IMG/VR virus record: IMGVR_UViG_3300032291_004449
Coordinates: 1 to 24,588 of that record
From: a virus
Length of the DNA stretch: 24,588 nucleotides
Reading direction: 5' to 3' (one strand)
Positions 6,398 through 23,402 of this stretch are shown here, one piece after another. A program made the position numbers and the translations under genes. The notes beneath the pieces were generated by a model that worked only from the letters and a program-made list of their open reading frames with translations, was not told the DNA's origin and did no database searches. Within the stretch, counting starts at the first letter, position 1. Each line of letters begins with the position of its first letter.

Positions 6398-7348
6398 ATG
6401 AAAGAAACCACAAAAAAACAGCTAATACAGCTAGAAATTCCACAGCACGATGATTTGATTACTGAGTTAAAACCAGATGAAGTAAAAAAAGAATTAGAAA
6501 ATGCAATTGAAACACCTAAACAAGTTCAAAAGCAGTTAACTCCAATTCAAAAGTTTCAATCTTATATAGAATCGTATAAGGAAACTGTACTTCCTAATTT
6601 ACTAAAAAAGCATAACATTGAACCAGCTCAATTTGTCCAAATAGTAATATCTGAGCTTAAAAAAAATGAAAAACTAGTTCAAGCTTTTTCTGAAAATCCA
6701 AGTTCTATGTTTGCTTCAATACTTGCTGGAGCTGAAATTGGTTTAATTCCTTCAGATATGTTAGGTGAGTTTTATTTAATACCTCGTAGAATTGATTCTA
6801 GATTAACTGTGACTCCTTTAATTGGTTATAAAGGATTAGTAAATATTTTATTAAGGTCAGGAGAAATAACTAAAATTCACACTGAATGTGTTTTTGAAGG
6901 AGATGAATTTGAACCAATTTATGGACTTGAGCCTAATATAATTCATAAGCCTAACTTTAATGTAGAAAGAAATGCTTCAACTTTAAAGTTTGTATACGCT
7001 GTTGCTAAATTAAAGAATGGAGAACATCAATTTACAGTTTTGTCAAAGTCTGATATATTGAAAATAAAAGCTTTATCACGATATGACAATGATTTATACT
7101 TTAATGATAGAAAAGACCCAAACTTATGGATGGTCAAAAAAACTACATTAATACAATTATCTAAAATGTTGCCAAAAGATTTTTATGGCAAAAAAGCAGT
7201 TGAAATGGACAATCAACTTGAAGGTGGAGCTTTCTTGAGTTTAGATGAAGATAACAATATTAAAATTGTTGATTCTAAAAAAATCTCATCTAACAAACAA
7301 TCTAATGTTGTTAATACAATAAATTCTCTACCTGAAATACCTGAATAG
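6398..7348 (+). CDS. recT: RecT-family single-strand annealing protein, 316 aa
   Basis: Residues 50-200 carry the RecT signature: SMFASILAGAEIGLIPS (103-119), GEFYLIPR (123-130), TVTPLIGYKGLVNILLRSG (137-155) and the EGDEFEPIYG strand (167-176). RecT binds single-stranded DNA and anneals complementary strands during phage recombination. The first 45 residues are a charged extension rich in Lys, Glu and Gln and probably flexible. The C-terminus (residues 290-316) is Asn/Ser rich. The partner nuclease is at 4702-5502. The 3' end overlaps the convergent glycosyltransferase gene by 38 nt. Length is slightly above the usual 270-310 because of the N-terminal tail. Confidence 0.93.
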   Translation: MKETTKKQLIQLEIPQHDDLITELKPDEVKKELENAIETPKQVQKQLTPIQKFQSYIESYKETVLPNLLKKHNIEPAQFVQIVISELKKNEKLVQAFSENPSSMFASILAGAEIGLIPSDMLGEFYLIPRRIDSRLTVTPLIGYKGLVNILLRSGEITKIHTECVFEGDEFEPIYGLEPNIIHKPNFNVERNASTLKFVYAVAKLKNGEHQFTVLSKSDILKIKALSRYDNDLYFNDRKDPNLWMVKKTTLIQLSKMLPKDFYGKKAVEMDNQLEGGAFLSLDEDNNIKIVDSKKISSNKQSNVVNTINSLPEIPE

Positions 7349-8132
7349 GTACGTATTTACTAACCAAGTCTAACGGGAAATCTTCAACATATTGTCTTAA
7401 ATAATGATAATATGGCTTGTAGGTTTCCCTTATTTTTTCCTCTGATAATTTCTCTAAAGGTCTTGTAGCATAATCTTTTGATGCTTCTTTATGATTTTCA
7501 AAGTTATTTGGGCTACCTATAGCTCCACTTTGTTTATGTCCTGCTATTTCATGTGGGTCTGACCAGTTAAAGCAATAAGATGGCACATATCGCTTATTAT
7601 GCTCATCAAGATGCTTTTCGTCTCTTAATTGAGTATACCAACTTAAACCTTCATAGCCTGTTATATCGCTTCTAAAGCCTATTTCCCTAATTCGTTCCAT
7701 TTTTACAATAACTGATGCCTCAAGTGTATTCATACACATTTGAACTTTATTGGGTGTTGCAAAAAAGCTTTGTTCAGGCTTCCAAGCATCCTTTCCATTT
7801 GCTTCAATACCATCTACGGCTTGTTGCATGTGCCAAGGCAAATAAATATCATCATCATCTGCCAACATGAAATAATCGCCTGTGGCGTGAGTTACTGCAT
7901 CTCTACATATCTGTCCTCTATTTTCATAAGGAGTTCCTGTTTCGTAGTTTATGCCATTATTTACAATGATTATTGAGCTGTCCTCAAATCCTAAACTATA
8001 AGGATACTCCTCATCTGTATTAAAAATGATTAATTCCTTATTAGGATATGTTTGAGCATGATATTGAGCTACAATTCTTTCAACGCAAGTAAATCTGCGG
8101 TATGATGTACATACAAAGCTTAATTTTTTCAT
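7311..8132 (-). CDS. GT2-type glycosyltransferase (GT-A fold), 273 aa
   Basis: The N-terminus (LSFVCTSYRRFTCVERIV) is a typical GT2 nucleotide-sugar strand-loop, followed by PNKELIIFNTDE and the acidic metal/nucleotide motif GDYFMLADDDDIYLP (DDDD near residues 92-95). This predicts a metal-dependent transferase acting on an activated sugar; donor and acceptor cannot be told. Two starts are possible: 8141 and 8132. I prefer 8132 because its ATG overlaps the stop of the upstream gene by 4 nt (ATGA), a common arrangement here. It is the last gene of the minus-strand glycan operon, and its 3' end runs 38 nt into the end of recT with no obvious terminator between them. Confidence 0.85.
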   Translation of the reverse strand: MKKLSFVCTSYRRFTCVERIVAQYHAQTYPNKELIIFNTDEEYPYSLGFEDSSIIIVNNGINYETGTPYENRGQICRDAVTHATGDYFMLADDDDIYLPWHMQQAVDGIEANGKDAWKPEQSFFATPNKVQMCMNTLEASVIVKMERIREIGFRSDITGYEGLSWYTQLRDEKHLDEHNKRYVPSYCFNWSDPHEIAGHKQSGAIGSPNNFENHKEASKDYATRPLEKLSEEKIRETYKPYYHYLRQYVEDFPLDLVSKYVPIQVFQVENLLY

Positions 8133-8779
8133 TTTATCCATTTTTTATATGCTTCTTGATATATTTCGGTTCTTTTAATTTTACCATGCCACAAATCACT
8201 TACAAAATCTTCATCTTGTAATACTAATAGGTCTTTTGACATTACATAGTTCTTATTATTTCTATCATAAAATAAGAATAAAGTGTCAATAACACCTGCA
8301 GTATATGGTATACTTAATATTTTATCATAAAATGATTCATTAATAGCATAAGCATGGGTACCATATAGTCCTGTGGTACATTTAGCAAGATTATTAGAAA
8401 TAGAATGACATTCAGCATTAGGCTCTCCACCCATATAAAACATATCCCATTCTATTTGTTTTAATTCTTCTACACAAACTTTCATTTTTTGAATAAAATT
8501 TGGTTTAAATACGCAATCATCTTCAAATATTAGGCAATTCTTAAATCCTCTTTTTTTAGCTTCTTTAATCATCTCAAAATGAGAGTAAGTGCACGATATT
8601 TTAATATGCCAATCTTTATTTTGTAATGGGTTTGGTACATCCCCTTCACCTAATTGAGTTGCAGAAAACCTTTCGGCTTGTATTCCAATTTCTGAGCTTC
8701 TTTTTTCAAAAGCCTCTTTTCTTTCTGTACGCTTATCTAAATTCAAATAGAAAGCTCCTTCAAAGTAATCTAATATCAT
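8129..8779 (-). CDS. Glycosyltransferase family 25-like protein, 216 aa
   Basis: The opening AFYLNLDKRTERKEAF is the GT25 (LPS biosynthesis/LgtB type) hallmark. It is followed by ERFSAT, then CTYSHFEMIKEAKKRGFKN and the acidic motif IFEDDCVF (E86-D87-D88), which binds metal-nucleotide sugar. Known GT25 enzymes add galactose or similar sugars to LPS, or to collagen in eukaryotes. The start at 8779 is 2 nt from the stop of the upstream FkbM gene and the end overlaps the next gene by 4 nt, so the operon is tightly coupled. The acceptor is unknown; the nearby Thr-rich virion protein glycan is a candidate. Confidence 0.85.
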   Translation of the reverse strand: MILDYFEGAFYLNLDKRTERKEAFEKRSSEIGIQAERFSATQLGEGDVPNPLQNKDWHIKISCTYSHFEMIKEAKKRGFKNCLIFEDDCVFKPNFIQKMKVCVEELKQIEWDMFYMGGEPNAECHSISNNLAKCTTGLYGTHAYAINESFYDKILSIPYTAGVIDTLFLFYDRNNKNYVMSKDLLVLQDEDFVSDLWHGKIKRTEIYQEAYKKWIK

Positions 8780-8781
8780 GG

Positions 8782-9489
8782 TTATTTTGGTATTGCAACA
8801 TAATCAACCAAATGTTCAGCATCTAATACCTTTGTATAGGTATAACCTAATGCTTCTATACGGCTAAATATGTCATTTTCATTCCACCCATAAATACTTA
8901 ATTGAGGTGGTTCTACTTCAATAAATATTACAGGTTTGTTTTTTAAAATTGTTTCTTTTGCTCCATCTAAAACTTTTGGCTCATAGCCTTGTACATCTAT
9001 CTTTAAAACACTTACATTTTCAATATTAAAAGAGTCTAATGTATTGACATCTACCATATTATAAGCTAAATGAGTACAAGCATCTAAATGAGCATTACCA
9101 ATATTTATTGCTTCATCTGAATAATATTGAAGATTTTCCATTTTTAATGTAGTCTTTTCATCACTCAAAGCATAATTATGAGAATATATATTAGCATGAC
9201 CATTCAAAATAATATTACCACATAATTGATAATACACCAATCTTTGCGGCTCAAATGAATAAACTTTTCCTTCATCTCCTACTAAATCTGCAAACTCTAA
9301 TGTATGGAAACCAAAATTGGCACCTACATCAATAATTGTAGTGCCTTGTACATTTAACTTTTCTTTAATGTAGTCGAAGATATAATGTTCATAAATACCC
9401 CCTCTGCGTGTCATATCTGTAACACCACAATCATTTTTGAAAAGTATGTATTTTTTTCTAATATCTACATACTCAATAGGTAGTTTCAT
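8782..9489 (-). CDS. FkbM-family SAM-dependent methyltransferase, 235 aa
   Basis: SAM-binding motif I is TIIDVGANFGFHTLEFA (residues 51-67), then VYSFEPQRLVYYQL (FEP at 79-81), and the FkbM hallmark VLKIDVQGYEPKVLDGA (161-177) followed by FIEVEP. FkbM enzymes methylate hydroxyl groups, often on sugars of polysaccharides or antibiotics. Here it probably caps or modifies a glycan made by the neighbouring transferases. It has a 2-nt gap to the genes on both sides. The N-terminal 48 residues include a strand-rich lead (VDIRKKYILFKNDCGV) usual for the family. Confidence 0.9.
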   Translation of the reverse strand: MKLPIEYVDIRKKYILFKNDCGVTDMTRRGGIYEHYIFDYIKEKLNVQGTTIIDVGANFGFHTLEFADLVGDEGKVYSFEPQRLVYYQLCGNIILNGHANIYSHNYALSDEKTTLKMENLQYYSDEAINIGNAHLDACTHLAYNMVDVNTLDSFNIENVSVLKIDVQGYEPKVLDGAKETILKNKPVIFIEVEPPQLSIYGWNENDIFSRIEALGYTYTKVLDAEHLVDYVAIPK

Positions 9490-9491
9490 AA

Positions 9492-9992
9492 TTAGTAATT
9501 TGTGAAATAACCATAATGGTCATCTCCAATTAAGTATTTCATACATGTATATCTTTCTAAAAAAAGCTCTTTAGTCAAATCAGGTTGTTTATGTATCTCA
9601 TGTACATTACCAAATTCGGCACCTTGCTCATAATTATAAGGTACAGCAATCATCATAAACTTATCTGCTCTGTGTATTTTATCAATCAAGTTTTTAGCTT
9701 CGTAAAATGCTAAATGCTCGATAATGTCTCCCATTATGAATAAATCATAGGGCTTGATGTCAAAATCTAGTATGTTGGTTATATATAAGTTATTGTACTT
9801 TGAACGCAAATCAAAATCTTGAACATATTGCTCAAAAATCTCAATTCCATCCATATTGGGAAAATTGTCTTTAAGCAGGGTTGAATAAGTTCCACATCCT
9901 GCACCTACATCCAAAATTTGAATATCTCTTTCAAATGTGTTTACAATATTATGTTTTACCTCATCTTTAAAGAGGTTATATGAATATGGCAT
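9492..9992 (-). CDS. Class I SAM-dependent methyltransferase, 166 aa
   Basis: Motif I reads IQILDVGAGCGTYSTLL (25-40), motif II ends GIEIFEQYVQDF (49-60), and the post-I region has LFIMGDIIEHL (84-94), a Methyltransf_11/23-type layout. At 166 aa it is short and has little room for a substrate domain, so the substrate is not predictable. Next to FkbM and glycosyltransferases it probably methylates a sugar or a sugar-linked group. It is separated from the zinc-ribbon gene by 9 nt. Confidence 0.82.
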   Translation of the reverse strand: MPYSYNLFKDEVKHNIVNTFERDIQILDVGAGCGTYSTLLKDNFPNMDGIEIFEQYVQDFDLRSKYNNLYITNILDFDIKPYDLFIMGDIIEHLAFYEAKNLIDKIHRADKFMMIAVPYNYEQGAEFGNVHEIHKQPDLTKELFLERYTCMKYLIGDDHYGYFTNY

Positions 9993-10001
9993 AAATTAAT
10001 T

Positions 10002-10232
10002 TTAGATTGTCCATTTGCCTAAAGGGCAGGCTTCTTGACCTTTTGGAGTAAATACTTTTGCTTTTGTAGCACACCCACATTTCGAGCAATGGTCTACAGG
10101 AACATTTCTCCAAGCTTCACAAGTCATACAAACTTGTAATCTTCTTGCAGCTACTTCTTTTTGTTCTTCAGTAGGATTCATCATAGTTGAGTATGCTGTT
10201 ACGATTTCTTGTATTTTATCAAATAGTCCCAT
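10002..10232 (-). CDS. Small Cys-rich zinc-ribbon-like protein, 76 aa
   Basis: The soluble helical N-terminus (MGLFDKIQEIVTAYS) is followed by a cysteine cluster C35-x2-C38, C49-x2-C52-x-C54 and C69, consistent with a zinc ribbon. A longer reading from 10301 would overlap the upstream gene by 83 nt and add a stretch that looks like noncoding translation, so the MGLFDK start, overlapping only 14 nt, is preferred. Similar short proteins ending in a CPLGKW-type motif occur in phage genomes near tail or glycan genes, with no assigned role. It is the only non-enzyme in the glycan operon, so it could be a chaperone or assembly factor for it; that is a guess. Confidence 0.7.
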   Translation of the reverse strand: MGLFDKIQEIVTAYSTMMNPTEEQKEVAARRLQVCMTCEAWRNVPVDHCSKCGCATKAKVFTPKGQEACPLGKWTI

Positions 10233-11208
10233 ATAAACATGAATTTTTACCGATTGATTTAATAATTTCAAAATACTTAAAAGAAGCCTTTTCAGTATCA
10301 TAATCTAATCCTTCATCTTCGTAAGGTAATTGATTAATATAATTTCCTTTATAGAATAATTTTTCAGCAGGATTTCCTGTTACACCTGCATTATGGAATA
10401 ATATCTTTTCATCCCATGTTTTAGATAAGTCAGTAGCCCAACAAAAATCCATTTCTTTAATTACATTAGTATTATAACCTCTCATCCATGCGTTCCATAA
10501 AACAGCCCACATGTCAGCACACCAAATTTGTAATTCATGATGAGTTGGGTCAGCTTGCCTTTTTTTATTATTAAGTTCAGTTATTTCTTTAAATAGCTTT
10601 TCTGAATCCTTTTCTACTTTATGAAAAAAAGCATAGTCTACATTTTTCATAATGTATTGAGCACCACCTGATTGTACTTCTCTAAGTCTTACTTCATCTG
10701 TATATATACCAACTATATCACACATTTTTTTCAAAACATCGTCTCCTTTAGATAGTATATAATCATGCCCTATGTAAGATATAGTATCAGATACATACCA
10801 ATTATTATCTTTTTGTTGGTAATTGTGTAAGAATAGAGGGAAACGAGTAAAAACCACATCGCAATCGTGGTAAAATATAGCTTCATCACTTAATTCAGGA
10901 AATGCTTGAAAATGCTGTTTTAGAATATTTGGTCTAATTGAGCTAATGTAACTAATTGGGTATTCTCTTGTGTCCTCGTAATAATGAAATTCAGCCACAT
11001 CAGAGTAAGCATCTTCTACTTTCTTGATAATGGCTCTTTTTTCTTCCCAATCGGCTTCATTCTTATTAAAAGCCCAAAGGGTATGAACATTAAATTCTTC
11101 GTGGATTCTTAGGTTTTTGAAATTTGTTAACATCACTTCCACTTGCCAAGCATAGTATTGTATGCAAGGCTGAACACACATTAGTGTTAGGGTCTTATGT
11201 TTGTACAT
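10219..11208 (-). CDS. GT-A-fold glycosyltransferase-like protein, 329 aa
   Basis: The sequence AIFYHDCDVVFTRFPLFL (110-127) holds a D115-x-D117 motif in a strand context typical of GT-A enzymes that bind a metal and a nucleotide sugar. The first 60 residues (TLTLMCVQPCIQYYAWQVEV) fit the N-terminal nucleotide-binding half. Later there is a His/Trp-rich region (HHELQIWCADMWAVLW) that is common in large plant and phage transferases acting on proteins, but I cannot name the subfamily. It heads the glycan operon, with a start context AAAAAAAACCATAAAATG and a candidate promoter at 11228-11260. Confidence 0.75.
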   Translation of the reverse strand: MYKHKTLTLMCVQPCIQYYAWQVEVMLTNFKNLRIHEEFNVHTLWAFNKNEADWEEKRAIIKKVEDAYSDVAEFHYYEDTREYPISYISSIRPNILKQHFQAFPELSDEAIFYHDCDVVFTRFPLFLHNYQQKDNNWYVSDTISYIGHDYILSKGDDVLKKMCDIVGIYTDEVRLREVQSGGAQYIMKNVDYAFFHKVEKDSEKLFKEITELNNKKRQADPTHHELQIWCADMWAVLWNAWMRGYNTNVIKEMDFCWATDLSKTWDEKILFHNAGVTGNPAEKLFYKGNYINQLPYEDEGLDYDTEKASFKYFEIIKSIGKNSCLYGTI

Positions 11209-11275: not shown

Positions 11276-13687
11276 TTAAGGGCAAGGTGTTCCTGTAGTA
11301 GTAACTGAACCATATCCAAAATCCATATAAGGAGTAGGAGTTCCTGAATTTAGTACGCAAATATCAAATTGGTTGCCATCGGATATAGGTGTAGATTGAG
11401 AATTACCTGCACAATCTATATAGTTAACAGTATCTCCTAATCCAAATCCATTGAAATTAGATACATTCCAAGTTGTACAAGGTGGAGGTGTTGTGCTTGT
11501 AGTTGTTGAACTTGTAGTCGTTGTTGTACAATTTATTGATACTGCTGTATTTTGAACTGATGTTTGAGGTAATGAATCTCTAACTGCCGTATACCATAGT
11601 TGATTTGTAATACCACTAAAATCATAGAATGTAGCACCGCCGCCTAAAGTAACTCTAAACCCACCTGTACCACAAGCACCGCCTGCAACACAAATTGCTG
11701 CATTTGCTGGTGAATCTGCAATCGCTACAAAAACATAAGTACCTGTTCCTCCTGAGAATGAAGCTCTAAATGAGCCTGTTGTACCACTACAAGTTACACC
11801 ACCATTAGTTATTACTAAAGGAGGTAAAGTAGTTGTCGTAGTTGTCGTACTTGTTATAGGTAAAGTAGTTGTTGTAGTTGTGCTACTAGTTGTAGTTGTA
11901 GTTGTCGTAGTACAAGTTTGTCCTCCTGATTTTACAACAGGAGCACCTGCAGTTGAAGTTACATATACATATCTAGTTCCATTAGGTTGGCTAGGGTAAC
12001 TTATTGAACCTGAAACAGATTGCATAGCACCTGCAACAGCACTTCCAGGGTCTCCATAAGTTGTTGTATTTGCAAAGTAAGTTCCTGTACCTCCACCGAA
12101 GGTATCAACAGTTATTGTTTGAGTGATTCCTGTACAAACAGAGCTAATATTTGCTGTTACAGGAGGCACAGTTGTAGTGGTAGTAGTGGTAGATGTAGTA
12201 GCAGGACATCCACTTAAACCTGAGTTAGTTATTCCTATTAGAGTTCCACCGGGATTAGATGTTAAAACTGCATTTACAACTAATGTTCTTGGAGTGCCTG
12301 AAACGGTTCCAAATACTCTACTTCCAACAATAGCGTACCCAATATCATAATTTGTAGAATTAGCAGTTCCACCAACATAACAAATATCCATTGCATACCA
12401 TACTTGTTGTATAGTTGTTGTAGTAGTTGTAGTCGCATTACAAGAAACAATAGTAAGTGCAGATATACCAATATTTCCTAAACTATCAACAATAGCAACC
12501 CAATAATTAGCATTTACTAATGAACTAAATGTTACACTAGGACCTGAAATAGTTACTCTTGTTGCAGGGTTTAAAGCTGCAGAAATTGCATTTGCCTCAG
12601 AGGTTCCAATACCTGCGTACTGATATGTTCCACTTCCACCTGCAAAATTATCTGCTACAATTCTACCATCTCCATTTAATCCTACACCTACACATGATGC
12701 AGTTGTAGATAATGTAACTACAGCTAATGTCGTAGTTGTTGTAGTAGTAGAAGTAGTAGGACAACCTGTTAAACCTGAATTAACAATACCTATTTGAGTT
12801 CCACCGGGGTCGCTAAATAATACACTTGCCACTACTAATGTAGAAGGTACACCTAAAACATTTCCAAATACTCTATCTCCCACTATCGCATATCCAACAT
12901 CATAATTAGTAGTATAAACTGTACCACCGCCATTACAATTTGTTAATTGAAACCATCTTTGTGATAGAGTTGTAGTTGTTGTAGTTGTAGTTGTACTTAA
13001 AGGACAAGTTCCACATCCAAAACTAGTAACTGTAGCAGTTGTAGTAGGGAATCCTGAAATATTAATATCTAAAGTACTACCAAGATACGCTAACACATAG
13101 TTACCATTAGGAAGTGTAGCGAATCCATTTGAAGTAAATATAGTAGATGTACAGAAAGCTGTAGAATTACCTACTACATTTTGTGTTCCTGTAGGATTTA
13201 AGCAAGCATCGGTTTGGTTACTTGCATAAGTTACAGTTTGTGCAAATATTGTTGTTGTAGTAGTTGTCGTACTTGTAGTAGTAGGTCCTGCAGGAGGAGT
13301 AGTACTTGTTGTTGTGGTACTTGTACTAGTAGTTGGTACAAGAGTTGTACTTGTTGTTGTTGTACTTGTAGTAGGTGCTATAGTTGTACTTGTAGTACTT
13401 GTACTTGTAGTCGTTGTTGTACTTGTTAGACTAGGAGCTAAAGTAGTACTAGTCGTAGTAGTGCTCGTTGTTGTGGTTGTTGTAGGGTCAGCATTAGTAG
13501 AAGCCACGCCATATACATCACTATCGTCAGTAGTAGTTAATACATTATTGCCACTAATTTGTTCAATCCAAAATATGCCAAAGCCTAAATTATTTAAAGC
13601 AGGAAGTAACCCTTGTGGACTATTAAATGTTCCATCATAACCTACTGTATAGTTATCTCCATTAATATTTATTGTAAAACTTGGCAT
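11276..13687 (-). CDS. Mosaic virion/adhesin-like protein with Thr/Ser tracts, 803 aa
   Basis: After an N-terminal domain (about 1-60), an approximately 80-residue Thr/Ser/Pro tract is followed by modules separated by shorter T/S tracts: an early Cys module (~148-230), then A (~244-310), B (~325-416), A (~428-493), B (~507-590), B (~622-718) and a C-terminal Cys-containing domain. Modules A share patterns such as TNYDVGYAIVGDRVFG and end in GLTGCP; modules B share a GG-S/T-GTY core and end in a Cys. Such strings of beta domains with flexible linkers are typical of phage tail or surface proteins, and Thr/Ser tracts are classic O-glycosylation regions. There is no signal peptide. A 1-nt stop/start overlap links it to the upstream 223-aa gene. 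Function as a host-binding or decoration protein is inferred. Confidence 0.85.
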   Translation of the reverse strand: MPSFTININGDNYTVGYDGTFNSPQGLLPALNNLGFGIFWIEQISGNNVLTTTDDSDVYGVASTNADPTTTTTTSTTTTSTTLAPSLTSTTTTTSTSTTSTTIAPTTSTTTTSTTLVPTTSTSTTTTSTTPPAGPTTTSTTTTTTTIFAQTVTYASNQTDACLNPTGTQNVVGNSTAFCTSTIFTSNGFATLPNGNYVLAYLGSTLDINISGFPTTTATVTSFGCGTCPLSTTTTTTTTTLSQRWFQLTNCNGGGTVYTTNYDVGYAIVGDRVFGNVLGVPSTLVVASVLFSDPGGTQIGIVNSGLTGCPTTSTTTTTTTLAVVTLSTTASCVGVGLNGDGRIVADNFAGGSGTYQYAGIGTSEANAISAALNPATRVTISGPSVTFSSLVNANYWVAIVDSLGNIGISALTIVSCNATTTTTTTIQQVWYAMDICYVGGTANSTNYDIGYAIVGSRVFGTVSGTPRTLVVNAVLTSNPGGTLIGITNSGLSGCPATTSTTTTTTTVPPVTANISSVCTGITQTITVDTFGGGTGTYFANTTTYGDPGSAVAGAMQSVSGSISYPSQPNGTRYVYVTSTAGAPVVKSGGQTCTTTTTTTTSSTTTTTTLPITSTTTTTTTLPPLVITNGGVTCSGTTGSFRASFSGGTGTYVFVAIADSPANAAICVAGGACGTGGFRVTLGGGATFYDFSGITNQLWYTAVRDSLPQTSVQNTAVSINCTTTTTSSTTTSTTPPPCTTWNVSNFNGFGLGDTVNYIDCAGNSQSTPISDGNQFDICVLNSGTPTPYMDFGYGSVTTTGTPCP
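12204..12399 (-). repeat. Module A, copy 2, of the Thr-rich protein gene
   Basis: Encodes the segment from WYAMDICYVGG to GLSGCP. The homologous copy is at 12759-12955. Similarity is clear in protein and in stretches of the DNA (both include TTCCAAATACTCTA on the plus strand), but the copies have diverged. Each is bordered by T/S tracts. Confidence 0.7.
12759..12955 (-). repeat. Module A, copy 1, of the Thr-rich protein gene
   Basis: Encodes the segment from WFQLTNCNGG to GLTGCP. It is the partner of 12204-12399 and is likely the result of an intragenic duplication with a B module in between. Confidence 0.7.
13247..13492 (-). repeat. Long low-complexity Thr/Ser-codon tract
   Basis: On the plus strand the DNA is a run of GTN-type triplets (GTAGTTGTCGTACTTG and variants), encoding about 80 residues of Thr with Ser, Pro, Ala and Leu on the minus strand. 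Codons are mixed (ACA, ACT, ACC, ACG), which breaks perfect microsatellite repeats. Shorter tracts recur near 12970, 12740, 12420, 12190, 11890 and 11490, and one at 23684-23704. Confidence 0.8.
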
Positions 13688-15061: not shown

Positions 15062-15062
15062 T

Positions 15063-15413
15063 TTATGATTTTTTAGTAGTATATAATAAGAAACCTAAAA
15101 GACCAATACCTGCAACAACTCCTAAAATAGTTACAACTTGATTAGTTTTTTCTCTTTCTAATGCAATATTGCCAAAAGTTTGTACTCTAGCCTGACTAAC
15201 ACCTCCTAAAGCATTTGCTAATATTTGCTGCCTAGATGTTTCATCTTGGGCTTTAATCAAAGCATCGTTTAATTGCTTTTTTTGGTCAAAGTCTAAAAGA
15301 CCTAACTGTTGTTCATATTGTGTTCTTAATCTATTATCTCTTGTACTTGCAATGGTACTCGCTACTGCGGTACCTGCTTGAACAACTGATGCTCCTGTCA
15401 TTAACCATGCCAT
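15063..15413 (-). CDS. Small protein with hydrophobic ends, 116 aa
   Basis: An N-terminal Ala/Gly/Thr-rich helix (MAWLMTGASVVQAGTAVAST) is followed by an acidic/Gln-rich helical core (YEQQLGLLDFDQKKQLNDAL) and a clear C-terminal membrane helix (TILGVVAGIGLLGFLLY) ending in TTKKS. The layout resembles the proteins at 15916 and 14699, so these may be paralogues with the same topology. Role in virion membrane, internal scaffold or lysis is unknown. Confidence 0.7.
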   Translation of the reverse strand: MAWLMTGASVVQAGTAVASTIASTRDNRLRTQYEQQLGLLDFDQKKQLNDALIKAQDETSRQQILANALGGVSQARVQTFGNIALEREKTNQVVTILGVVAGIGLLGFLLYTTKKS

Positions 15414-15415
15414 AA

Positions 15416-15916
15416 TTATCCAATTTTATTTTTATCAATCTTTTCTTTATAATCTAAATGAATATTAGTTCCTGTAATACAATTTTGGTGCGGTTCTATT
15501 ATTTCATTTTCAATTTCATCTACAATATTTTGTTTTTCTTGTTCAGTCAAATCATTATAGGACAATTTCATATCTTCTAATGGATGATAGGTTGTCCAAA
15601 TACAATCTTCAACAATATATAAAACCCTTCTTGTTCCTGCTACAGTTATACCTGTAAAAGGAGCAGCTAACTCAATCCATTCTCCTGCATCAATTTGTAC
15701 CATCGCTATTCCTTGAGAAATAGTATATGGGTGATTCGTATTATGAATCTTACTAGTTAACAAAGAATCCTTTGGCATGAATATCTCTCTAATGTACATT
15801 CCGTCTGTGAATCTGTGTACAACAGGACATTCAACCAACTCAAAATTATCAACTATAGCAGCCTCTAATTCATCAATCCTTTGGTCATTTTCTCTTTTTA
15901 TGGTTTCGTTTTGCAT
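15416..15916 (-). CDS. Cupin-like conserved phage protein, 166 aa
   Basis: After a helical N-terminus (IKRENDQRIDELEAAIV), residues 30-112 look like a small beta-barrel (cupin/jelly-roll type): CPVVHRFTDGMYIREIFMP, LLTSKIHNTNHPYTIS, AGEWIELAAPFTGIT, AGTRRVLYIVEDCIWTTYHP. His residues at about 34, 58, 62 and 111 could bind metal as in cupins. Proteins of this type are frequent in phage structural regions; their role is not established. The only soluble member among the membrane proteins, it shares a base with the next gene's stop. Confidence 0.75.
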   Translation of the reverse strand: MQNETIKRENDQRIDELEAAIVDNFELVECPVVHRFTDGMYIREIFMPKDSLLTSKIHNTNHPYTISQGIAMVQIDAGEWIELAAPFTGITVAGTRRVLYIVEDCIWTTYHPLEDMKLSYNDLTEQEKQNIVDEIENEIIEPHQNCITGTNIHLDYKEKIDKNKIG

Positions 15917-16347
15917 TAATCTTTTTTTCTTGAATAAATTAAACCAATAGCTAGTAAACCTAATAAGGAGATAATAACTATCTTTTCTATTCTAATATTT
16001 CTATTTATCTGCTCTTGTTGTACTATTACACCTGCAAGGTTTTCAACTCTTTTTGCTTGTGCATTTTGTATAACAGCAGCAATAATTCTATATGTCTCTT
16101 CCTCTGTTTTAGCTTTATCTATCGAATTAATCAAAGCTTGTTGTTGGTCATCGCTAAGATTAGACAAATAGTTTTGAAACTGTTGGGCTTTTTTTGCATC
16201 ATTTATAGCTGCTACCCCACCTGCTAAAGAAGATGCTATTTCAACAATTTGTCCAATTGCTTCTGCTGTCCCGATTTTTTTTAAGTCTCCTTTAGAGAAC
16301 ATTTTTTGAAAAGGGTTTATAGCTGTAGGGTCTCCTTTTGGTATCAT
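15916..16347 (-). CDS. C-terminally anchored small protein, 143 aa
   Basis: A mixed N-terminus (PFQKMFSKGDLKKIGTAEAI) is followed by a small hydrophobic helix (VEIASSLAGGVAAIN), a Gln/Glu-rich helical region (QNYLSNLSDDQQQALINSID) and a C-terminal membrane helix (EKIVIISLLGLLAIGLIY) with a basic tail SRKKD. It shows the same plan as 15063-15413. It overlaps the upstream gene by 4 nt (16344-16347) and shares one base with the next. Function is unknown; structural or lysis roles fit the position. Confidence 0.7.
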   Translation of the reverse strand: MIPKGDPTAINPFQKMFSKGDLKKIGTAEAIGQIVEIASSLAGGVAAINDAKKAQQFQNYLSNLSDDQQQALINSIDKAKTEEETYRIIAAVIQNAQAKRVENLAGVIVQQEQINRNIRIEKIVIISLLGLLAIGLIYSRKKD

Positions 16348-16646
16348 TTTAAAAAGCTATTTTTGATTACTTCCCACAAAATTGTCCAAACTGCTCCACC
16401 TACAACAAATGCCCCCATTAATTTATTTCTGAGAGCATTCGTCTTTTCGTTTTGGTCTTCCAATTTTTTAACTCTTGAAATCAACCCTTCCTGTTGAAAA
16501 GCTTCATTTCCAACTATTACTTTATAAATTTCATCAATTTGAGGACTAATTTTCATGATAGTTTTCTCAATATGATTAACTCTTACACTCAAGTTTTCAC
16601 TTGAGCTTACAGTCCTAGTCGTTGTCCTTTTAGTAGAAGTAGCCAT
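16344..16646 (-). CDS. Coiled-coil plus C-terminal membrane span, XhlA/holin-like, 100 aa
   Basis: The chosen start gives MATSTKRTTTRTVSSSE, a Thr/Ser-rich tail, then a coiled coil (RVNHIEKTIMKISPQIDEIY and RVKKLEDQNEKTNALRNKL) and one C-terminal membrane helix (MGAFVVGGAVWTILWEVI). This order is like XhlA-type hemolysin/holin proteins and some phage tail membrane proteins. A longer start at 16679 adds residues over the candidate promoter 16664-16674, so 16646 is preferred. It is the first gene of the minus-strand virion operon. Holin identity is only a suggestion; no endolysin is recognised nearby. Confidence 0.7.
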   Translation of the reverse strand: MATSTKRTTTRTVSSSENLSVRVNHIEKTIMKISPQIDEIYKVIVGNEAFQQEGLISRVKKLEDQNEKTNALRNKLMGAFVVGGAVWTILWEVIKNSFLK

Positions 16647-16658
16647 TAACACACATAA

Positions 16659-16699
16659 TTTAGTATAAAAATAATACAATTTTACATTTATATACTAAA
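16659..16699. repeat. 9-bp inverted repeat overlapping the virion-operon promoter
   Basis: TTTAGTATA (16659-16667) and TATACTAAA (16691-16699) are perfect inverted copies separated by 23 nt. The left arm overlaps the putative -7 box (TAAAAATA on plus, 16666-16673). It could be an operator for a dimeric repressor/activator, or a weak stem at the 3' side of the kinase gene. No T-run follows it, which argues against a terminator. Confidence 0.45.
16664..16674 (-). promoter_or_regulatory. Candidate promoter of the minus-strand virion operon
   Basis: The minus-strand 11-mer TTATTTTTATA is 17 nt before the ATG at 16646, the same element and distance as at 11228 and 17609. It contains TATTTTTA, one base from the TAnnTTTG consensus. 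The flanking inverted repeat (16659-16699) may regulate it. Confidence 0.45.
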
Positions 16700-16723: not shown

Positions 16724-17179
16724 TTATAAAGACATATAATCTAATATTCGGTCAATACACATTTCAGGAGTAAAATTTGTAGTATTTATGGAACAATTCT
16801 TTTTAAATTCAACATAAGGGGGGTCAAAATCTTTTACATGAAATTCTTGCCTTTCTCTAAAATCAACATTGAATAAATGAACCCAAAACACATTATTGCA
16901 TATACTATCTAAGTATTCTCTAGCTTCCTTTATTGGATATACTGCACTGATAATCACTAAGTTATATTTGCTTTCTAAAAAAGTGGCTATATCGCTTATC
17001 CTTCTAAGGTTATTCAATGTACCTTCTTTTGAATAGTCGGTATCTTTAAAAATAGTGCGAATTTCATCCCCATCTATAATTACAGGGGTTGGCTGATTTT
17101 GTAAGAAAACCCTTTCTTGGAGCAATTTAGCCAAAGTAGTCTTTCCTGAACTAGGTTGGCCGTAAAAAACTACTATCAT
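16724..17179 (-). CDS. APS-kinase-like (CysC-type) P-loop kinase, 151 aa
   Basis: Walker A is FYGQPSSGKTTLAKLL (G7-x4-GKT); VIIDGDEIRTIF (34-44) matches the DGDxxR motif of adenylylsulfate kinases; the following YSKEGTLNNLRRISDIATFL matches the FSxxDRxENIRR region, and IISAVYPIKEAREYL resembles the SPYRxxR strand. APS kinase makes PAPS, the sulfate donor for sulfotransferases. No sulfotransferase was found, and CysC-like folds also phosphorylate other small molecules, so the substrate is open. In a glycan island, a role in sulfation or in making an activated sugar is plausible. It ends 77 nt before the virion operon. Confidence 0.75.
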   Translation of the reverse strand: MIVVFYGQPSSGKTTLAKLLQERVFLQNQPTPVIIDGDEIRTIFKDTDYSKEGTLNNLRRISDIATFLESKYNLVIISAVYPIKEAREYLDSICNNVFWVHLFNVDFRERQEFHVKDFDPPYVEFKKNCSINTTNFTPEMCIDRILDYMSL

Positions 17180-17191
17180 ATTGATTTATAA

Positions 17192-17563
17192 TTAGTTATA
17201 AGATTTTTCCTCTACATATTGACTCCCATAAGCCAAATTTATCTCTTTTTTAATCATAGCTCTAGCATCATTTAGTAAATAAACAGACCTAGCAAGTTTA
17301 ATGAAATCTTCTCCAAACTCATGTTTTTTCTCGTATTCTCTTAATTTATCTTCTACAACCCATAATTTAGAGTTTATATTTAACAATCTTTTAAAATCTT
17401 CATTATCCTCATCTACTTCCAATTCTTCCTTCATAAGGTTAAGTAAGTAGAAATACTCCTTTATCACATTAGTGAGTTTGGCCTCATCTTTAATCTTTTC
17501 TGATTTAATTTTTAAGATGGTAAGTCTGTCAAATGCTTCTCCGATGCTAATTTCAATTATCAT
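17192..17563 (-). CDS. DUF6165-like protein, 123 aa
   Basis: The opening IIEISIGEAFDRLTILKIKSEK is close to the DUF6165 pattern (SIGExxDKxTILxIK) from memory, followed by KDEAKLTNVIKEYFYLLN and a second helical half with acidic stretches. DUF6165 proteins often sit beside glycosyltransferases and heptosyltransferases in bacterial genomes; their function is unknown. Here it directly precedes the kinase, 12 nt apart, and is divergent from the GT9 operon at 17638. This placement supports a link to glycan assembly. Confidence 0.7.
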   Translation of the reverse strand: MIIEISIGEAFDRLTILKIKSEKIKDEAKLTNVIKEYFYLLNLMKEELEVDEDNEDFKRLLNINSKLWVVEDKLREYEKKHEFGEDFIKLARSVYLLNDARAMIKKEINLAYGSQYVEEKSYN

Positions 17564-17637: not shown

Positions 17638-18603
17638 ATGGATAATATTTGTCTCGATTTATCAGAATGTAATGGTCTAGGAGACTTAATATGTGCTACT
17701 CCTACTATTAAAAAGATAAGTGAAGCGTATCAAAAAAAAATAACAGTTATCTCAAATTTGCCTGAATTGTTTAAAATGAACCCTTATGTAGAGAAAAGCT
17801 ATAAAGCTTCATCTATTGATAAAGAATATTTTAACAAAAATTATATCATGCACAACTCCTTTTATCTAGTAGGCAAAAAAGATGAAAGAGGTATAGAGAT
17901 GAAGCATAACATGATGGATATTAGACAGTTCCATGCTATACACCTAGGCTTTATGCTTGGACATGATGAAATGGAATGTTTCTACAGACCTACAGAAGAA
18001 TGTTCTTTTGAAATACCTAAAAAACCTTATATTTTAATACATCCTGTAAGCACTTGGCCCTCAAGAACTTGGTCTACTAAAAATTGGATGAATTTAACAA
18101 AACAATTGAATGATAGTGGTTTTGATGTAGTTTCTATTGGAAAAGATTCATCTGAAACAGGATTTTTTAATGTAGAAAAACCTGTATTTAATTTTCAAAT
18201 TGAGAAAGGTTTGAACTTAATGAATAAGACTTCTATATCTGATTGTTGGCATTTAATGAATAATGCTACAGCATTTGTTACTATGGATAGTGGATTATTA
18301 CACCTTGCAGGTACTACAAATGTTCCTATTATTCATTTAGGTTCATCAATTAAACCTGAATTTAGGATTCCTTATAGATATGGAGAAAATGGTAGAAAAC
18401 ATTATTATAATGATAAATTAGTTTATAATTATGTGCGTGGTGGATGTGGATTAGAATGTGCATCCAATATGAAATATGCTCTTGAATATTGGCCTACAAT
18501 AGATTCTGTACAACCTTTAATTGGATGTTTAGAAAAGAAAGAAACCTACGAATGTCATCCATCTGTAGAACAAGTCATTACTGTAATTAAAAAAGAACTA
18601 TGA
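17638..18603 (+). CDS. GT9 (heptosyltransferase-type) glycosyltransferase, 321 aa
   Basis: GT-B fold landmarks of family 9 are clear: GLGDLICATPTIKKISEAY (13-31) as the N-terminal loop, ILIHPVSTWPSRTWSTKNW (132-150), and FVTMDSGLLHLAGTTNVP (213-230) before IIHLGSS. GT9 enzymes transfer ADP-heptose, usually to LPS core. A cysteine cluster at the C-terminus (C270-x3-C274, C297, C306 in YECHPS) resembles the one in the last gene of this operon and is unusual for LPS heptosyltransferases. It is the first gene of the operon and overlaps the next by 4 nt. The acceptor could be protein or glycan. Confidence 0.88.
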   Translation: MDNICLDLSECNGLGDLICATPTIKKISEAYQKKITVISNLPELFKMNPYVEKSYKASSIDKEYFNKNYIMHNSFYLVGKKDERGIEMKHNMMDIRQFHAIHLGFMLGHDEMECFYRPTEECSFEIPKKPYILIHPVSTWPSRTWSTKNWMNLTKQLNDSGFDVVSIGKDSSETGFFNVEKPVFNFQIEKGLNLMNKTSISDCWHLMNNATAFVTMDSGLLHLAGTTNVPIIHLGSSIKPEFRIPYRYGENGRKHYYNDKLVYNYVRGGCGLECASNMKYALEYWPTIDSVQPLIGCLEKKETYECHPSVEQVITVIKKEL

Positions 18604-21305
18604 AGAAGTTATTAATTATTACACCACATTTATCTACAGGCGGAGCTCCCCAATGTTCAGTTAAAAAAATTGAATTAATCAAAAATGATTTTCACATTAA
18701 AGTCATTGAACATTCTTTTCTTGCTTGGTCTTTTGTTGTACAAAGAAATAGAATTATTAATCTAGTTGGACAAAATAATTTTCATTCTTTAGGTCATAAT
18801 AAGTTTGATGAAATGAAGTCTATTATTAATGATTTCAAACCTGATGTTATCAGTATGGAAGAGTTTCCTGAAATGTTTATGGATGATGAAATGTCAAGTT
18901 TTTTATATTCTGAAACAAGAACTTGGAAAATAGTAGAATCAACTCATGATAGCAGTTTTAATCCAAAAAACAAAAAATGGATGCCTGACAAATTTGTATT
19001 TGTTAGCCCATATAATATTATGAAATATGACCATTTGGATATACCTCAAGAAATAATTGAATATCCTATAGATGCAAAAACTTCAAATAAAAGAATAGCA
19101 AGAGAGAAATTAGGTCTCGAGCATGATTACAAACATGCAGTAATAATTGGTTTATTTACTCCTAGAAAGAACCAAAAATATGGCTTTGAAATGGCAGAAA
19201 AGCTTAAAGATTACAAAATTAAATTTCACTTCTTAGGTAATCAAGCAGGTAATTTTGAAAGCTATTGGAAGCCATTGATGGATAAAAAGCCTGAGAACTG
19301 CGTAATTTGGGGTGAAAGAGGCGATACAGAGGACTTTATCAAAGCTGCTGACCTATTCTTCTTCCCATCCAAAGGAGACAGAGGAAATAAGGAATTAAAC
19401 CCTATTGTGATAAAAGAAGCTGCTGAGTATAAACAATTACCCAAACTTATATACAACTTAGATGTTTATTTGAATAGGTGGAATGAGTACGAAGACTTTC
19501 ATTATTTAACAGGCAATCTTACTGAAGATGCTGAAAAGGTCTTACAATTAACTCAAGCAAAAGCAACTAACAATAAAAGAGAGCTCATAATTGTGGGTAC
19601 TTGGCCTAATTTAGAAAGTAGAGTACAATTAACCAAAGACACTATTAATAGCTTAAAGCCATTAGGTAGAAAGATTATGCTATTATCTCACTATCCTGTT
19701 GATGAAGATATTCAAAAGATGGTAGACTATTACATATATGATAAGCATAACCCATTAACTCATCATTCTTACTATACTAGATTTTATAGATATACAGATG
19801 ATTTTCATGCTGAAATTAATATTAATGGCCTGAAGAATAGTAATCAGTCATTAACTGTTCTGACTAATTTATTTAATGGTGCAAAGGCTGCAAAATCTTT
19901 AGGATATGAAGCGTTCTTTTATACTACTTATGATGTTGTTTTAGATGCTAGAGATATACCTGTAATTGAAAAAGCATTAGATATTGGAGATAAAACAAAT
20001 CCATATTTATATAAAGCCTATTTAGGTAGTTTAAACACACCTTTTGGTAAAGGTATTCAGACAAATGGCATGGCTTTTGAAGTGGACTTTTTTTTAAAGA
20101 CTTTTGATGATGTTAGAACTACTGAAGAGTATAATAACATTTGCGAAAATATTGGTGCTCAAAACTTTCTTGAAGACTATTTAGTTAAAAAGTTAAGAGG
20201 TTCAGAAAAAGATTATATGATTGAGCATAATAAAGAGGAAACTTTACTAAAACATAGTGGACTTGGAGTAGCTTCTAATAGTGAATATTACTCAATAATA
20301 CCTATTGTAAATAGGCCTAACAATTATATGTTTTATTTCTATACCTATAATGTAGATAATAGAAAGGTTAATATAACGATGCGTGAATCAGGGCAAGATT
20401 TTTTTATATATAGATGGCAAATTGATAAAACAACTGAATTTAAAAAAGAATTTGAATATAAAGGCCTTGAGATTGAAGTAGAGCTTGACTTTTATGATGG
20501 AGATAGAATATATAAAAATGAAAAGTATGTTCTAAATAATAAAACGATTGATAAATTTCAGCATACAGGACATTATAAGATTAAAACTAGAAAACCAAAA
20601 ATTAGATTAATTCACTTACAAACAACTAGAAATGATGAAAGAGAACAAAAAAGTAGAGAATCACTCAAGCATGTGGCAAACTACGGATGGGAATATATCA
20701 TACACACAAATACCCCTTACGCAGACTTACCACCTAAATACAACTGTCAAAGACCCAATTGTGTTTCTATGGAACTCTTCAATGAGCAGCAAGTTCAGGA
20801 ATTGGGAACAGCCCTTACACCCTCTCACTATGGATGCTTTGAATCCTTCAAAAATGGGATAATGAGTGAATTTGATGATAGTATTGACTTTTTGGTAGTA
20901 TGTGAAGGCGATTGTATAATAGAAGTACCTATGCAGGAATTTGTAAATAAAGTAGAAAGTTCTTATCAAATTATAGAAGATAATAAAATAGGCTATATGT
21001 CTTTTGGAGATGTAAAAACATTAGAGCATGGTTGGTTGCAATCTACTGTTAAAGAGGTTGTTCCTGACAAAGATTTATTATTTATTACCGACCATATCAT
21101 TGGGCTTCAATGTATTGCGTTTCCAAGAAGTGTTAAAAAGTGGCTTTTAGAAAGACTTAGAACAGAAAAGTGGGATGCCTCAGATATTTTTTTCAATCGT
21201 GTTTTTTATGGTAGCCCATACAAATTTGGAATAGTTCACAATAGATTAACTACACAAGCTGAAGGATTTTCGTTAATTGATAAACAAGAAAAAAAATTTA
21301 TATGA
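18600..21305 (+). CDS. Three-domain glycosyltransferase fusion, 901 aa
   Basis: Residues 1-320 are a GT-B, GT4-like domain (start LLIITPHLSTGGAPQCS, then AVIIGLFTPRKNQKYGFEMA at 180-199 and LFFFPSKGDRGNKELNPIVI at 252-271). Residues 326-560 look like a GT-A type domain (RELIIVGTWPNLESRVQLTK, then AFFYTTYDVVLDAR with an acidic motif). A beta-rich spacer (~565-665) leads to a GT25-like domain at 668-901 (LIHLQTTRNDEREQKSRESL, LTPSHYGCFESFKNGI, DFLVVCEGDCII). Three transferases on one chain would let consecutive sugars be added without release. Both ends overlap neighbours by 4 nt (ATGA), so it is well coupled. Which sugars are used is unknown. Confidence 0.85.
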   Translation: MKKLLIITPHLSTGGAPQCSVKKIELIKNDFHIKVIEHSFLAWSFVVQRNRIINLVGQNNFHSLGHNKFDEMKSIINDFKPDVISMEEFPEMFMDDEMSSFLYSETRTWKIVESTHDSSFNPKNKKWMPDKFVFVSPYNIMKYDHLDIPQEIIEYPIDAKTSNKRIAREKLGLEHDYKHAVIIGLFTPRKNQKYGFEMAEKLKDYKIKFHFLGNQAGNFESYWKPLMDKKPENCVIWGERGDTEDFIKAADLFFFPSKGDRGNKELNPIVIKEAAEYKQLPKLIYNLDVYLNRWNEYEDFHYLTGNLTEDAEKVLQLTQAKATNNKRELIIVGTWPNLESRVQLTKDTINSLKPLGRKIMLLSHYPVDEDIQKMVDYYIYDKHNPLTHHSYYTRFYRYTDDFHAEININGLKNSNQSLTVLTNLFNGAKAAKSLGYEAFFYTTYDVVLDARDIPVIEKALDIGDKTNPYLYKAYLGSLNTPFGKGIQTNGMAFEVDFFLKTFDDVRTTEEYNNICENIGAQNFLEDYLVKKLRGSEKDYMIEHNKEETLLKHSGLGVASNSEYYSIIPIVNRPNNYMFYFYTYNVDNRKVNITMRESGQDFFIYRWQIDKTTEFKKEFEYKGLEIEVELDFYDGDRIYKNEKYVLNNKTIDKFQHTGHYKIKTRKPKIRLIHLQTTRNDEREQKSRESLKHVANYGWEYIIHTNTPYADLPPKYNCQRPNCVSMELFNEQQVQELGTALTPSHYGCFESFKNGIMSEFDDSIDFLVVCEGDCIIEVPMQEFVNKVESSYQIIEDNKIGYMSFGDVKTLEHGWLQSTVKEVVPDKDLLFITDHIIGLQCIAFPRSVKKWLLERLRTEKWDASDIFFNRVFYGSPYKFGIVHNRLTTQAEGFSLIDKQEKKFI

Positions 21306-22321
21306 AAATAGCACAAGTTATAAGTAGTAGTATACCAATTCTTCCTACAGGAGAAAGAGGATGGGGTGCGACTGAATTAATTATGGATGAATATTCTAAA
21401 AATTTGAGGAAACTTGGACATGAAGTAGATTTAACATGGTTAGATTCAGTAGAACCTGATAAATATGATATTGTACATATTCATGTAGCTAATTTATGTT
21501 TAGAAGCTGCTAAAAGAGGTATTGAGTATGTTTATTCAACTCATGACCATCATAGCTACCATTTTGGTAAAAATAGTGGTAATTATAGAGAACAATTAGA
21601 AGCTATGAAGAAATCAATGTTTTCGTTAGCTCCTGCAGAATATGTAGTAGATTATTTTGATGATACTGACAAGCTATTTTATTTATCTCATGGAGTAGAT
21701 ACTAGCTACTACATACCTAATTTTGGTTATAGTAACCATAAATTGTTAATGTGTGCAAATAACGGAGTAGCAGGTGATTATGGAGCAGACAGAAAAGGAT
21801 TTAGATATGGAATTGAAGCTGCTAAATCATTAAACTTACCTATTACTATAGTTGGAGCAGATGCCAATACCAAGTTTTTTGAAATTCATAAAGACTTATT
21901 AGAATATGATAAGCTGACTATTATTGACACAAATCCTACTGAGGCAGAGAAGTTGAAGATATTTCAAGACCATACCATATTCTTACATCCATCTAATTTG
22001 GAGTTTGGACATCCTAATTTAACTTTATTAGAAGCTGCAAGTTGTTGTATACCAATAGTTGGTACTTATAAAGGAACCGATAAAATTGAAGGGATGTATG
22101 TAATGAATGAATTAAATACTGAAGAAGTTATTAAAGGTATAAATTTTGTATCTAGAAAATATGATGTATTAGTTGTAGAAATGTCAATAAAGAGAGAATC
22201 TTATGATTGGTTAAATGTTTGTAAAAATTTACAAAAGAAGTATAACGCAGTAAAACAATTCCAAAATTTTGATAGTCAAACTATAAGGAATAAATACATA
22301 GAAATATATAATAATTTGTAG
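21302..22321 (+). CDS. GT4-family glycosyltransferase (GT-B fold), 339 aa
   Basis: The N-terminal half begins KIAQVISSSIPILPTGERG and contains WGATELIMDEYSKNLRKLGH, typical of GT4. The C-terminal half has LPITIVGADANTKFF (179-193) and the donor-site segment FLHPSNLEFGHPNLTLLEAA (227-246) with E244. GT4 enzymes transfer hexoses or similar from nucleotide sugars with retention of configuration. It overlaps the fusion protein gene by 4 nt and precedes the heptosyltransferase-like gene by 4 nt, so it works in the same pathway. No N-terminal signal, so it acts in the cytoplasm. Confidence 0.9.
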   Translation: MKIAQVISSSIPILPTGERGWGATELIMDEYSKNLRKLGHEVDLTWLDSVEPDKYDIVHIHVANLCLEAAKRGIEYVYSTHDHHSYHFGKNSGNYREQLEAMKKSMFSLAPAEYVVDYFDDTDKLFYLSHGVDTSYYIPNFGYSNHKLLMCANNGVAGDYGADRKGFRYGIEAAKSLNLPITIVGADANTKFFEIHKDLLEYDKLTIIDTNPTEAEKLKIFQDHTIFLHPSNLEFGHPNLTLLEAASCCIPIVGTYKGTDKIEGMYVMNELNTEEVIKGINFVSRKYDVLVVEMSIKRESYDWLNVCKNLQKKYNAVKQFQNFDSQTIRNKYIEIYNNL

Positions 22322-22325
22322 TGTT

Positions 22326-23402
22326 ATGATTGAATATAAGTTAACTCATGTACAAGGCCTTTACTTTGAAATAATAGATGATGGAGGCAAAAATAGAGAA
22401 TACGATGTTGTTTTTATTGATAAAAAAGACAATAGTATTATTTATGAGGTAAAACTTGGTTTAAAACATTGGGCTAAATTAGATAGAAAGTACTTTTCAG
22501 ATATAGGTATATTCATAAAATATGAAGGAAGAACTATTAAACAAGTTAACTTATTAGATGAAATAGAAGGGAAAAATGTATTTATAAATTTTGAAAGCTC
22601 AAGTATAGGAGATACTATCGCATGGATTCCATATTGCAGAGAGTTTAGTACACATTATAATTGTAAAGTGCATGTTTCTACTTTTCATAATTATTTGTTT
22701 GAAAATATGTATTCTGATTTAACTTTTGTGGCTAGAGGTTCTGTCGTTAACAATATACATGCTATGTTTGATTTAGGTTGGTTTTATGATAAGATGAAAG
22801 AACCTTTTTTGCCATCTACGATACCTTTACAAAAAACAGCTACTAATATCTTAAACCTACCTTTTGTAGAGACATTGCCAATAATTGATTTTCAGCCTAA
22901 AGAAAGGCCATACGAAGCTAAATATATCGCTATTTCGACCATATCTACATCTCAACTAAAGCATTGGTATTATTGGCAAGAGCTAATTGAAGAGCTAATC
23001 AATATGGGCTATAAAGTAGTTGAAGTATCTAAACAAAGCACTCATTTTGATAATATTATTACACCTGAAGACAAATCCTTGCAAAATGTGATGAATATAC
23101 TACACCATGCAGATGGGTATATAGGCCTTTCTAGTGGCATTAGTTGGCTAAATTGGGCACTTGGCAAGAAAGGGTATATGATTTCCAACTTTACCTCAAA
23201 AGACCATGAATTTCAAAGTAATTGCGTTAGGATAGTAAAAGAGGATGTTTGTCATGGATGTTGGCATAATCCTGCATTTCGCTTCAACAAAGGTTCGTGG
23301 AATTGGTGCCCTGAACATGAAGATACGCCAAGACAATTTGAATGCCATAAAAGTATTACCCTTGGCATTGTATTAGATAAAATAAAAAAGGTAGGATTTT
23401 AG
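22326..23402 (+). CDS. GT9-related protein O-heptosyltransferase-like (TibC/Aah type), 358 aa
   Basis: After a beta-rich N-terminal domain (1-85), the catalytic part has FINFESSSIGDTIAWIPYCR (86-105), where the GDTIAW motif is characteristic of autotransporter O-heptosyltransferases (BAHT family: TibC, Aah). A C-terminal Cys set C309-x2-C312-x15-C328-x11-C340 matches the type of iron-binding finger described for TibC. The last segment, GLSSGISWLNWALGKK (267-282), fits the GT9 donor loop. Known members attach heptose to Ser of adhesins. Here the Thr/Ser-tract virion protein is a likely acceptor, but no enzyme-substrate link is shown. Its stop lies inside the terminator hairpin region (23383-23410). 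Confidence 0.78.
   Translation: MIEYKLTHVQGLYFEIIDDGGKNREYDVVFIDKKDNSIIYEVKLGLKHWAKLDRKYFSDIGIFIKYEGRTIKQVNLLDEIEGKNVFINFESSSIGDTIAWIPYCREFSTHYNCKVHVSTFHNYLFENMYSDLTFVARGSVVNNIHAMFDLGWFYDKMKEPFLPSTIPLQKTATNILNLPFVETLPIIDFQPKERPYEAKYIAISTISTSQLKHWYYWQELIEELINMGYKVVEVSKQSTHFDNIITPEDKSLQNVMNILHHADGYIGLSSGISWLNWALGKKGYMISNFTSKDHEFQSNCVRIVKEDVCHGCWHNPAFRFNKGSWNWCPEHEDTPRQFECHKSITLGIVLDKIKKVGF

Follow-up and report, generated by a model that had tools for sequence, protein, structure and literature searches.

A thumb-less relative of the TibC glycosyltransferase encoded by phages and linked to Gly-Thr-Ser collagen-like proteins

The closest described relatives of the protein presented here are TibC and AAH (bacterial autotransporter heptosyltransferases, BAHT, profile TIGR04414; PDB 4rap and 4rb4), which glycosylate adhesins of the autotransporter type. 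In TibC four cysteines, Cys339, Cys342, Cys358 and Cys370, hold a ferric ion, Arg286 contacts N1 of the adenine of ADP-heptose and without it the activity is absent or much reduced, and a β-hairpin thumb builds a dodecamer, with mutants of the thumb tip (Phe265/Val266) being inactive dimers (PMC4358343). The LPS heptosyltransferases of family GT9, WaaC and WaaF, share the GT-B catalytic core with the protein described below but have neither an N-terminal barrel nor a Cys4 finger, and their acceptor is a lipid. In giant viruses, the viruses' own enzymes are thought to glycosylate virus proteins, collagen-like and capsid proteins among them; such systems resemble the one proposed here in that virus-encoded enzymes serve virus proteins, some of them collagen-like, whereas the enzymes and the viruses are unrelated to ours. 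Collagen-like proteins with GTS repeats have been described in Burkholderia, with no mention of a glycosyltransferase (PMC4565658). The openly accessible papers covered by our literature search mention neither an enzyme of this type in phages nor a link between such enzymes and Gly-Thr-Ser collagen-like proteins, and it is the pairing with neighbouring (Gly-Thr/Ser-Ser)n proteins that is new here.

The window, i.e. the whole stretch of 24,588 nt of viral DNA that was analysed (IMG/VR record IMGVR_UViG_3300032291_004449), carries near its end a complete CDS with an ATG start that is open up to its stop codon (Table 1). The inferred protein has an N-terminal β-barrel (about residues 1–80) followed by a GT-B catalytic domain and a Cys4 finger at residues 309–340. 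In a search of the NCBI profiles it scores 223.1 bits (E 5e-66) against TIGR04414, for which the curated equivalog cut-off is 200 bits, while the model for LPS heptosyltransferase I, TIGR02193, gives 17.3 bits where 185.3 are needed. The score against Pfam GT9 (PF01075) is 26.2 bits with a gathering cut-off of 22, which places the protein in the superfamily, but the best profile is not that of ordinary GT9. TibC is its only sequence relative in the PDB (4e-35), with all four finger cysteines aligned, and no family was found for it in PHROGs.

Table 1. Positions in the window of the TibC-like gene, its key codons and the other genes discussed
Feature	Position	Strand	Basis or remark
GT2 glycosyltransferase (second cluster, 7311..11208)	7311..8141	-	profile match
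GT25 glycosyltransferase (second cluster)	8129..8779	-	profile match
FkbM methyltransferase (second cluster)	8782..9489	-	profile match
Methyltransferase-like protein (second cluster)	9492..9992	-	profile match
phrog_4417 protein (second cluster)	10219..11208	-	profile match
Thr-rich protein, 803 aa (25% Thr)	11276..13687	-	TTTTTSTTTT linkers between repeated domains; alternative acceptor candidate
APS-kinase-like P-loop kinase beside the cluster	16724..17179	-	Pfam 52 bits; 25/102 viral loci
DUF6165 protein	17192..17563	-	Pfam 37.4 bits; near the TibC-like gene in 60/102 viral loci
GT9 glycosyltransferase, C-terminal cysteines of its own at 270/274/297/306	17638..18603	+	Pfam GT9 61.9 bits
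Multidomain protein with GT4 domain, 901 aa	18600..21305	+	Pfam Glycos_transf_1 28 bits
GT4-like glycosyltransferase, 339 aa, immediately upstream	21302..22321	+	Pfam Glycos_transf_1 and Glyco_trans_1_4, E ~2e-5, just under cut-off
TibC/BAHT-like glycosyltransferase of the thumb-less branch, 358 aa	22326..23402	+	TIGR04414, PDB TibC, AF2 model, VIA-align
Codon of Asp96, equivalent of the TibC catalytic base Asp110	22611..22613	+	TibC alignment; Asp in 83/83 viral rows
Codon of Val255, aligned with TibC Arg286	23088..23090	+	TibC alignment
Cys4 finger (Cys309, Cys312, Cys328, Cys340)	23250..23345	+	TibC alignment

An earlier AF2 model built from 13 sequences had a finger with pLDDT below 50, which was solved with an alignment of 70 rows, giving a mean pLDDT of 96.1 and 90–95 in the finger. 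With Foldseek this model matches TibC at E 8e-30 and TM 0.83, and in VIA-align the superposition with TibC covers 348 residues of the model (residues 1–358), N-terminal barrel included, at Z 37.5 and rmsd 2.9, to be compared with Z 18–20 for GT9 structures (best 20.1). The original prediction had assigned the protein to the BAHT type rather than to the LPS heptosyltransferases on the basis of its cysteines and the SSSIGDTIAWIPY motif, and had proposed profile searches and modelling of the cysteine cluster as checks; both agree with the assignment, and the translated CDS has the motif at residues 91–103 (S91–Y103) and cysteines at positions 104, 113, 300, 309, 312, 328 and 340. The last four follow the spacing C-x2-C-x15-C-x11-C, identical to that of the iron-binding set of TibC. 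That the gene would encode an ordinary LPS heptosyltransferase, a reading which agrees with the Pfam GT9 match and the common GT-B fold, is so improbable as to be negligible given the TIGR02193 score, and given that barrel and finger of the model align with TibC and not with WaaC; the scores for TIGR02193 and TIGR04414, the PDB search and the structure comparison led to its rejection.

By alignment, Asp110, Thr226, Lys230 and Trp305 of TibC, i.e. the catalytic Asp and the Thr, Lys and Trp of the sugar site, correspond to Asp96, Thr208, Lys212 and Trp274, and these four positions are conserved almost throughout an alignment of 83 viral and 21 cellular relatives, in which all four finger cysteines are invariant. 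The departures from TibC and AAH are found elsewhere. At the position of Arg286 the window protein has Val255, and an Arg is present in only 7 of the 83 viral rows. The thumb segment is 10 residues shorter, the model has no hairpin strands there, and the two thumb-tip positions are gaps in 69 of the 83 viral rows. In the tree the protein falls within a virus-only clade of 56 rows (support 98/89), apart from the TibC clade (100/99). Heptose and ring assembly can thus not be transferred from TibC, where both Arg286 and the thumb are needed, and the label "O-heptosyl" of the original prediction, which had taken the gene product for a protein O-heptosyltransferase, is unsupported for a protein outside the autotransporter clade without the thumb and without the adenine-reading Arg. 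Judged by its sequence the protein is a member of TIGR04414 but in the features that define function it is not a BAHT, and strictly speaking it does not belong to the autotransporter heptosyltransferases.

The gene could also be a captured BAHT that adds heptose to AIDA- or TibA-type adhesins of the host, in line with the TIGR04414 score above the equivalog cut-off. We regard this as very improbable from the position in the tree and from the loss of two features on which TibC activity depends (PMC4358343). In addition, the target repeats of autotransporters (TIGR04415) are found in 0/34 virus records, the window itself being a fragment, and about 18 of them in each of the two TibC-type plasmids used as controls, and on this basis an autotransporter partner in these phages was rejected. 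The domain of ADP-heptose enzymes, TIGR02199, has no match over the cut-off in 33 virus records; phage-made ADP-heptose was rejected since the only matches, in three of these records, are below the cut-off.

The original prediction considered such an enzyme unexpected in a phage. The location in a virus contig stands but the enzyme is not rare, as a pattern scan of IMG/VR gave at least 598 confirmed viral stretches encoding relatives, and TIGR04414 scores lie above the cut-off in each of the 31 virus records that were scanned. By profile searches 9 of these 31 records carry a terminase and 7 a T4-type capsid protein (gp23), with no match to either profile in the window's own clade. One relative comes from a phage that has been isolated, Microcystis phage Mel-JY01 (PP395634); there the domain is the last part of a long fusion protein that carries the annotation FkbM methyltransferase. 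The GenBank phage sequences yield two further carriers, both metagenomic giant phages, and one of these was apparently deposited twice. Unlike TibC and AAH the viral branch is often fused to GT4 domains; this is seen in many virus contigs, and some of the fusions also contain GT9, methyltransferase or DUF6165 parts. Some virus contigs have two TibC-like domains in tandem, one of them divergent (L019, L020 and L023, 10846–11733; L022, 8105–11761).

In the neighbourhoods of the cellular relatives, proteins with Gly-Thr-Ser repeats adjoin the gene. A looser scan for runs of at least six Gly-x-y triplets rich in Ser/Thr is positive in 15 of 22 cellular and 74 of 106 viral stretches. Of 19 cellular genomes, 16 contain a strict DNA pattern of four (Gly-[Ser/Thr]-[Ser/Thr]) triplets, in many cases only once and on the contig that also carries the enzyme; of the three that lack it, two belong to the TibC clade. 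Among the virus records 30/33 have the strict pattern, counts that are not independent since the viral rows are related, versus 0/2 TibC-type plasmids; it is absent from G004, G013 and W03, the first two of which are fragments. The linkage was also followed in the order to which a Methylobacter genome belongs, where 151 genomes were scanned with TIGR04414. Eight pass: three TibC-type genomes score more than 650 bits, and the five from the other branch about 305–327 bits. The repeat is found in all five genomes of the non-TibC type versus 12 of the 146 others (Fisher p 1e-5), some of these 12 being non-coding repeats, and in four of the five it lies within 0.6–0.8 kb of the enzyme. With the looser scan a partner is located within about 1.5 kb at 5/5 of these loci versus 0/3 TibC-type and 0/22 ordinary GT9 loci. 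In the reverse direction, virus contigs were selected by nothing but the repeat, or by a Gly-Pro repeat as control, and the enzyme is encoded in 16 of 48 of the former versus 1 of 46 of the latter (p 5e-5), the Gly-Pro control set being mixed because its pattern is nearly palindromic in DNA; in contigs above 80 kb picked by the repeat it is found in 9 of 13.

Cellular TIGR04414 proteins without the thumb, from Methylococcaceae as well as other bacteria and archaea (e.g. L033 and L040), share with the viral ones the features of the branch and the adjacent Gly-Thr-Ser repeat gene; a signal- or lipoprotein-like N-terminus in several is counted among the likenesses, and was read by eye in several of the partner proteins. 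They differ in being mostly stand-alone and mostly without a linked set of GT4 and GT9 genes. The phage repeat proteins have matches to tail-fibre PHROGs and to Pfam Collagen, and in some a Peptidase_S74 chaperone forms the C-terminus. The window ends just short of the fibre genes, and the repeat gene, which lies outside it, is seen in a near-identical contig of 75 kb (G001, 97% identical over the gene), which on the 3' side encodes repeat proteins of 1643 and 250 residues, 1.6 kb away and further. In Mel-JY01 (PP395634.1) a frame of 1016 codons with Gly-Ser-Ser/Gly-Thr-Ser repeats is present on the + strand (stretch L025, 1–3049), where the annotation places a fragment and, on the opposite strand, a hypothetical gene (WWT39287).

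As this enzyme branch occurs beside Gly-Thr-Ser collagen-like proteins in both phages and bacteria, phages may well use it to coat their own fibres with sugar. We consider it probable that the gene product is a thumb-less protein O-glycosyltransferase which starts glycans on collagen-like fibres of the phage, with linked GT4 and GT9 enzymes extending and methyltransferases capping them. Our inferences on its activity, on donor and acceptor, on the metal and on the biological role are as follows. As a GT-B-fold relative of TibC and AAH from a separate branch without the dodecamer-building thumb, the enzyme would transfer the first sugar, most likely in the host cytoplasm, to Ser/Thr of the (Gly-Thr/Ser-Ser)n repeats in fibre proteins that the phage itself encodes, so that its partner would be a collagen-like protein and not an autotransporter. 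Asp96 should act as the base and Lys212 and Thr208 should hold the phosphate, while the Cys4 finger might order the C-lobe and bind the substrate. The sugar could then be extended by the neighbouring or fused GT4, GT9, GT2 and GT25 enzymes and capped by methyltransferases, and the product would be a glycosylated receptor-binding fibre.

The main doubt is that fibre and glycosyltransferase genes of phages may share a region for other reasons, as they do in the host-recognition region of pelagimyophages (PMC7029224). With such a shared region as the whole cause of the proximity to fibre genes, the enzyme could, like other phage transferases acting on surface glycans, remodel LPS or another surface glycan of the host and lead to superinfection exclusion, which is how the fibre-region glycosyltransferases of pelagimyophages are read (PMC7029224), and the GT9, GT25, GT2 and GT4 genes of the window would fit. 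This seems unlikely, as the relatives of solved function act on proteins and the pairing is absent at the ordinary GT9 loci. The best answer to the doubt is given by the enzyme and Gly-Thr-Ser pairs on bacterial chromosomes, since they sit among housekeeping genes.

A protein O-glycosyltransferase might also have another virion protein as acceptor, for example the Thr-rich protein encoded in the same window, with a quarter of its residues being Thr and with Thr-run linkers. This is quite improbable, as CDSs with Thr runs are found at few loci, near the window clade, against Gly-Thr-Ser repeats in most of the virus records; a PDB sequence search with the Thr-rich protein gave no convincing relative. 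As for the enzymes that would extend the glycan on the collagen-like fibre, many relatives have the counterpart of the GT4-like gene immediately upstream joined to the TibC-like domain in one protein, and at 91 of 102 viral loci a homologue of the 901-aa protein lies close to the TibC-like gene or forms a fusion with it. The four cysteines of the GT9 neighbour are invariant in 30 of 30 relatives and a metal may thus be held there too. The DUF6165 protein may belong to the same pathway as the TibC-like enzyme; this domain of unknown function is fused to the TibC-like gene in two viral loci.

Whether phages share one widespread system with bacteria and at least one archaeal bin is an evenly balanced question: in it the thumb-less, non-autotransporter branch would hyperglycosylate (Gly-Thr/Ser-Ser)n collagen-like proteins, its donor not being ADP-heptose and its assembly not the TibC ring, and in phages it would give glycan-coated receptor-binding fibres. 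If so, many phage glycosyltransferases usually read as LPS modifiers would have a concrete acceptor, the TibC family would extend from adhesins to collagen-like fibres, and the recurrence of proline-poor Gly-Thr-Ser collagen repeats in phages and bacteria might be explained by a role as glycan carriers. In several bacteria the gene of the enzyme directly adjoins that of its likely partner, which makes the claim testable in E. coli with two plasmids.

PDB sequence searches with the putative capsid and ATPase proteins gave nothing convincing. In the lineage of the window (window 14370–16679 and the 75-kb contig, L130–L133) there is a P-loop ATPase with a weak Zot-like match, together with many small proteins that start with a hydrophobic helix, a PAP2 protein and several lysozyme-like proteins, and the lineage may be one of membrane-containing or tailless phages.
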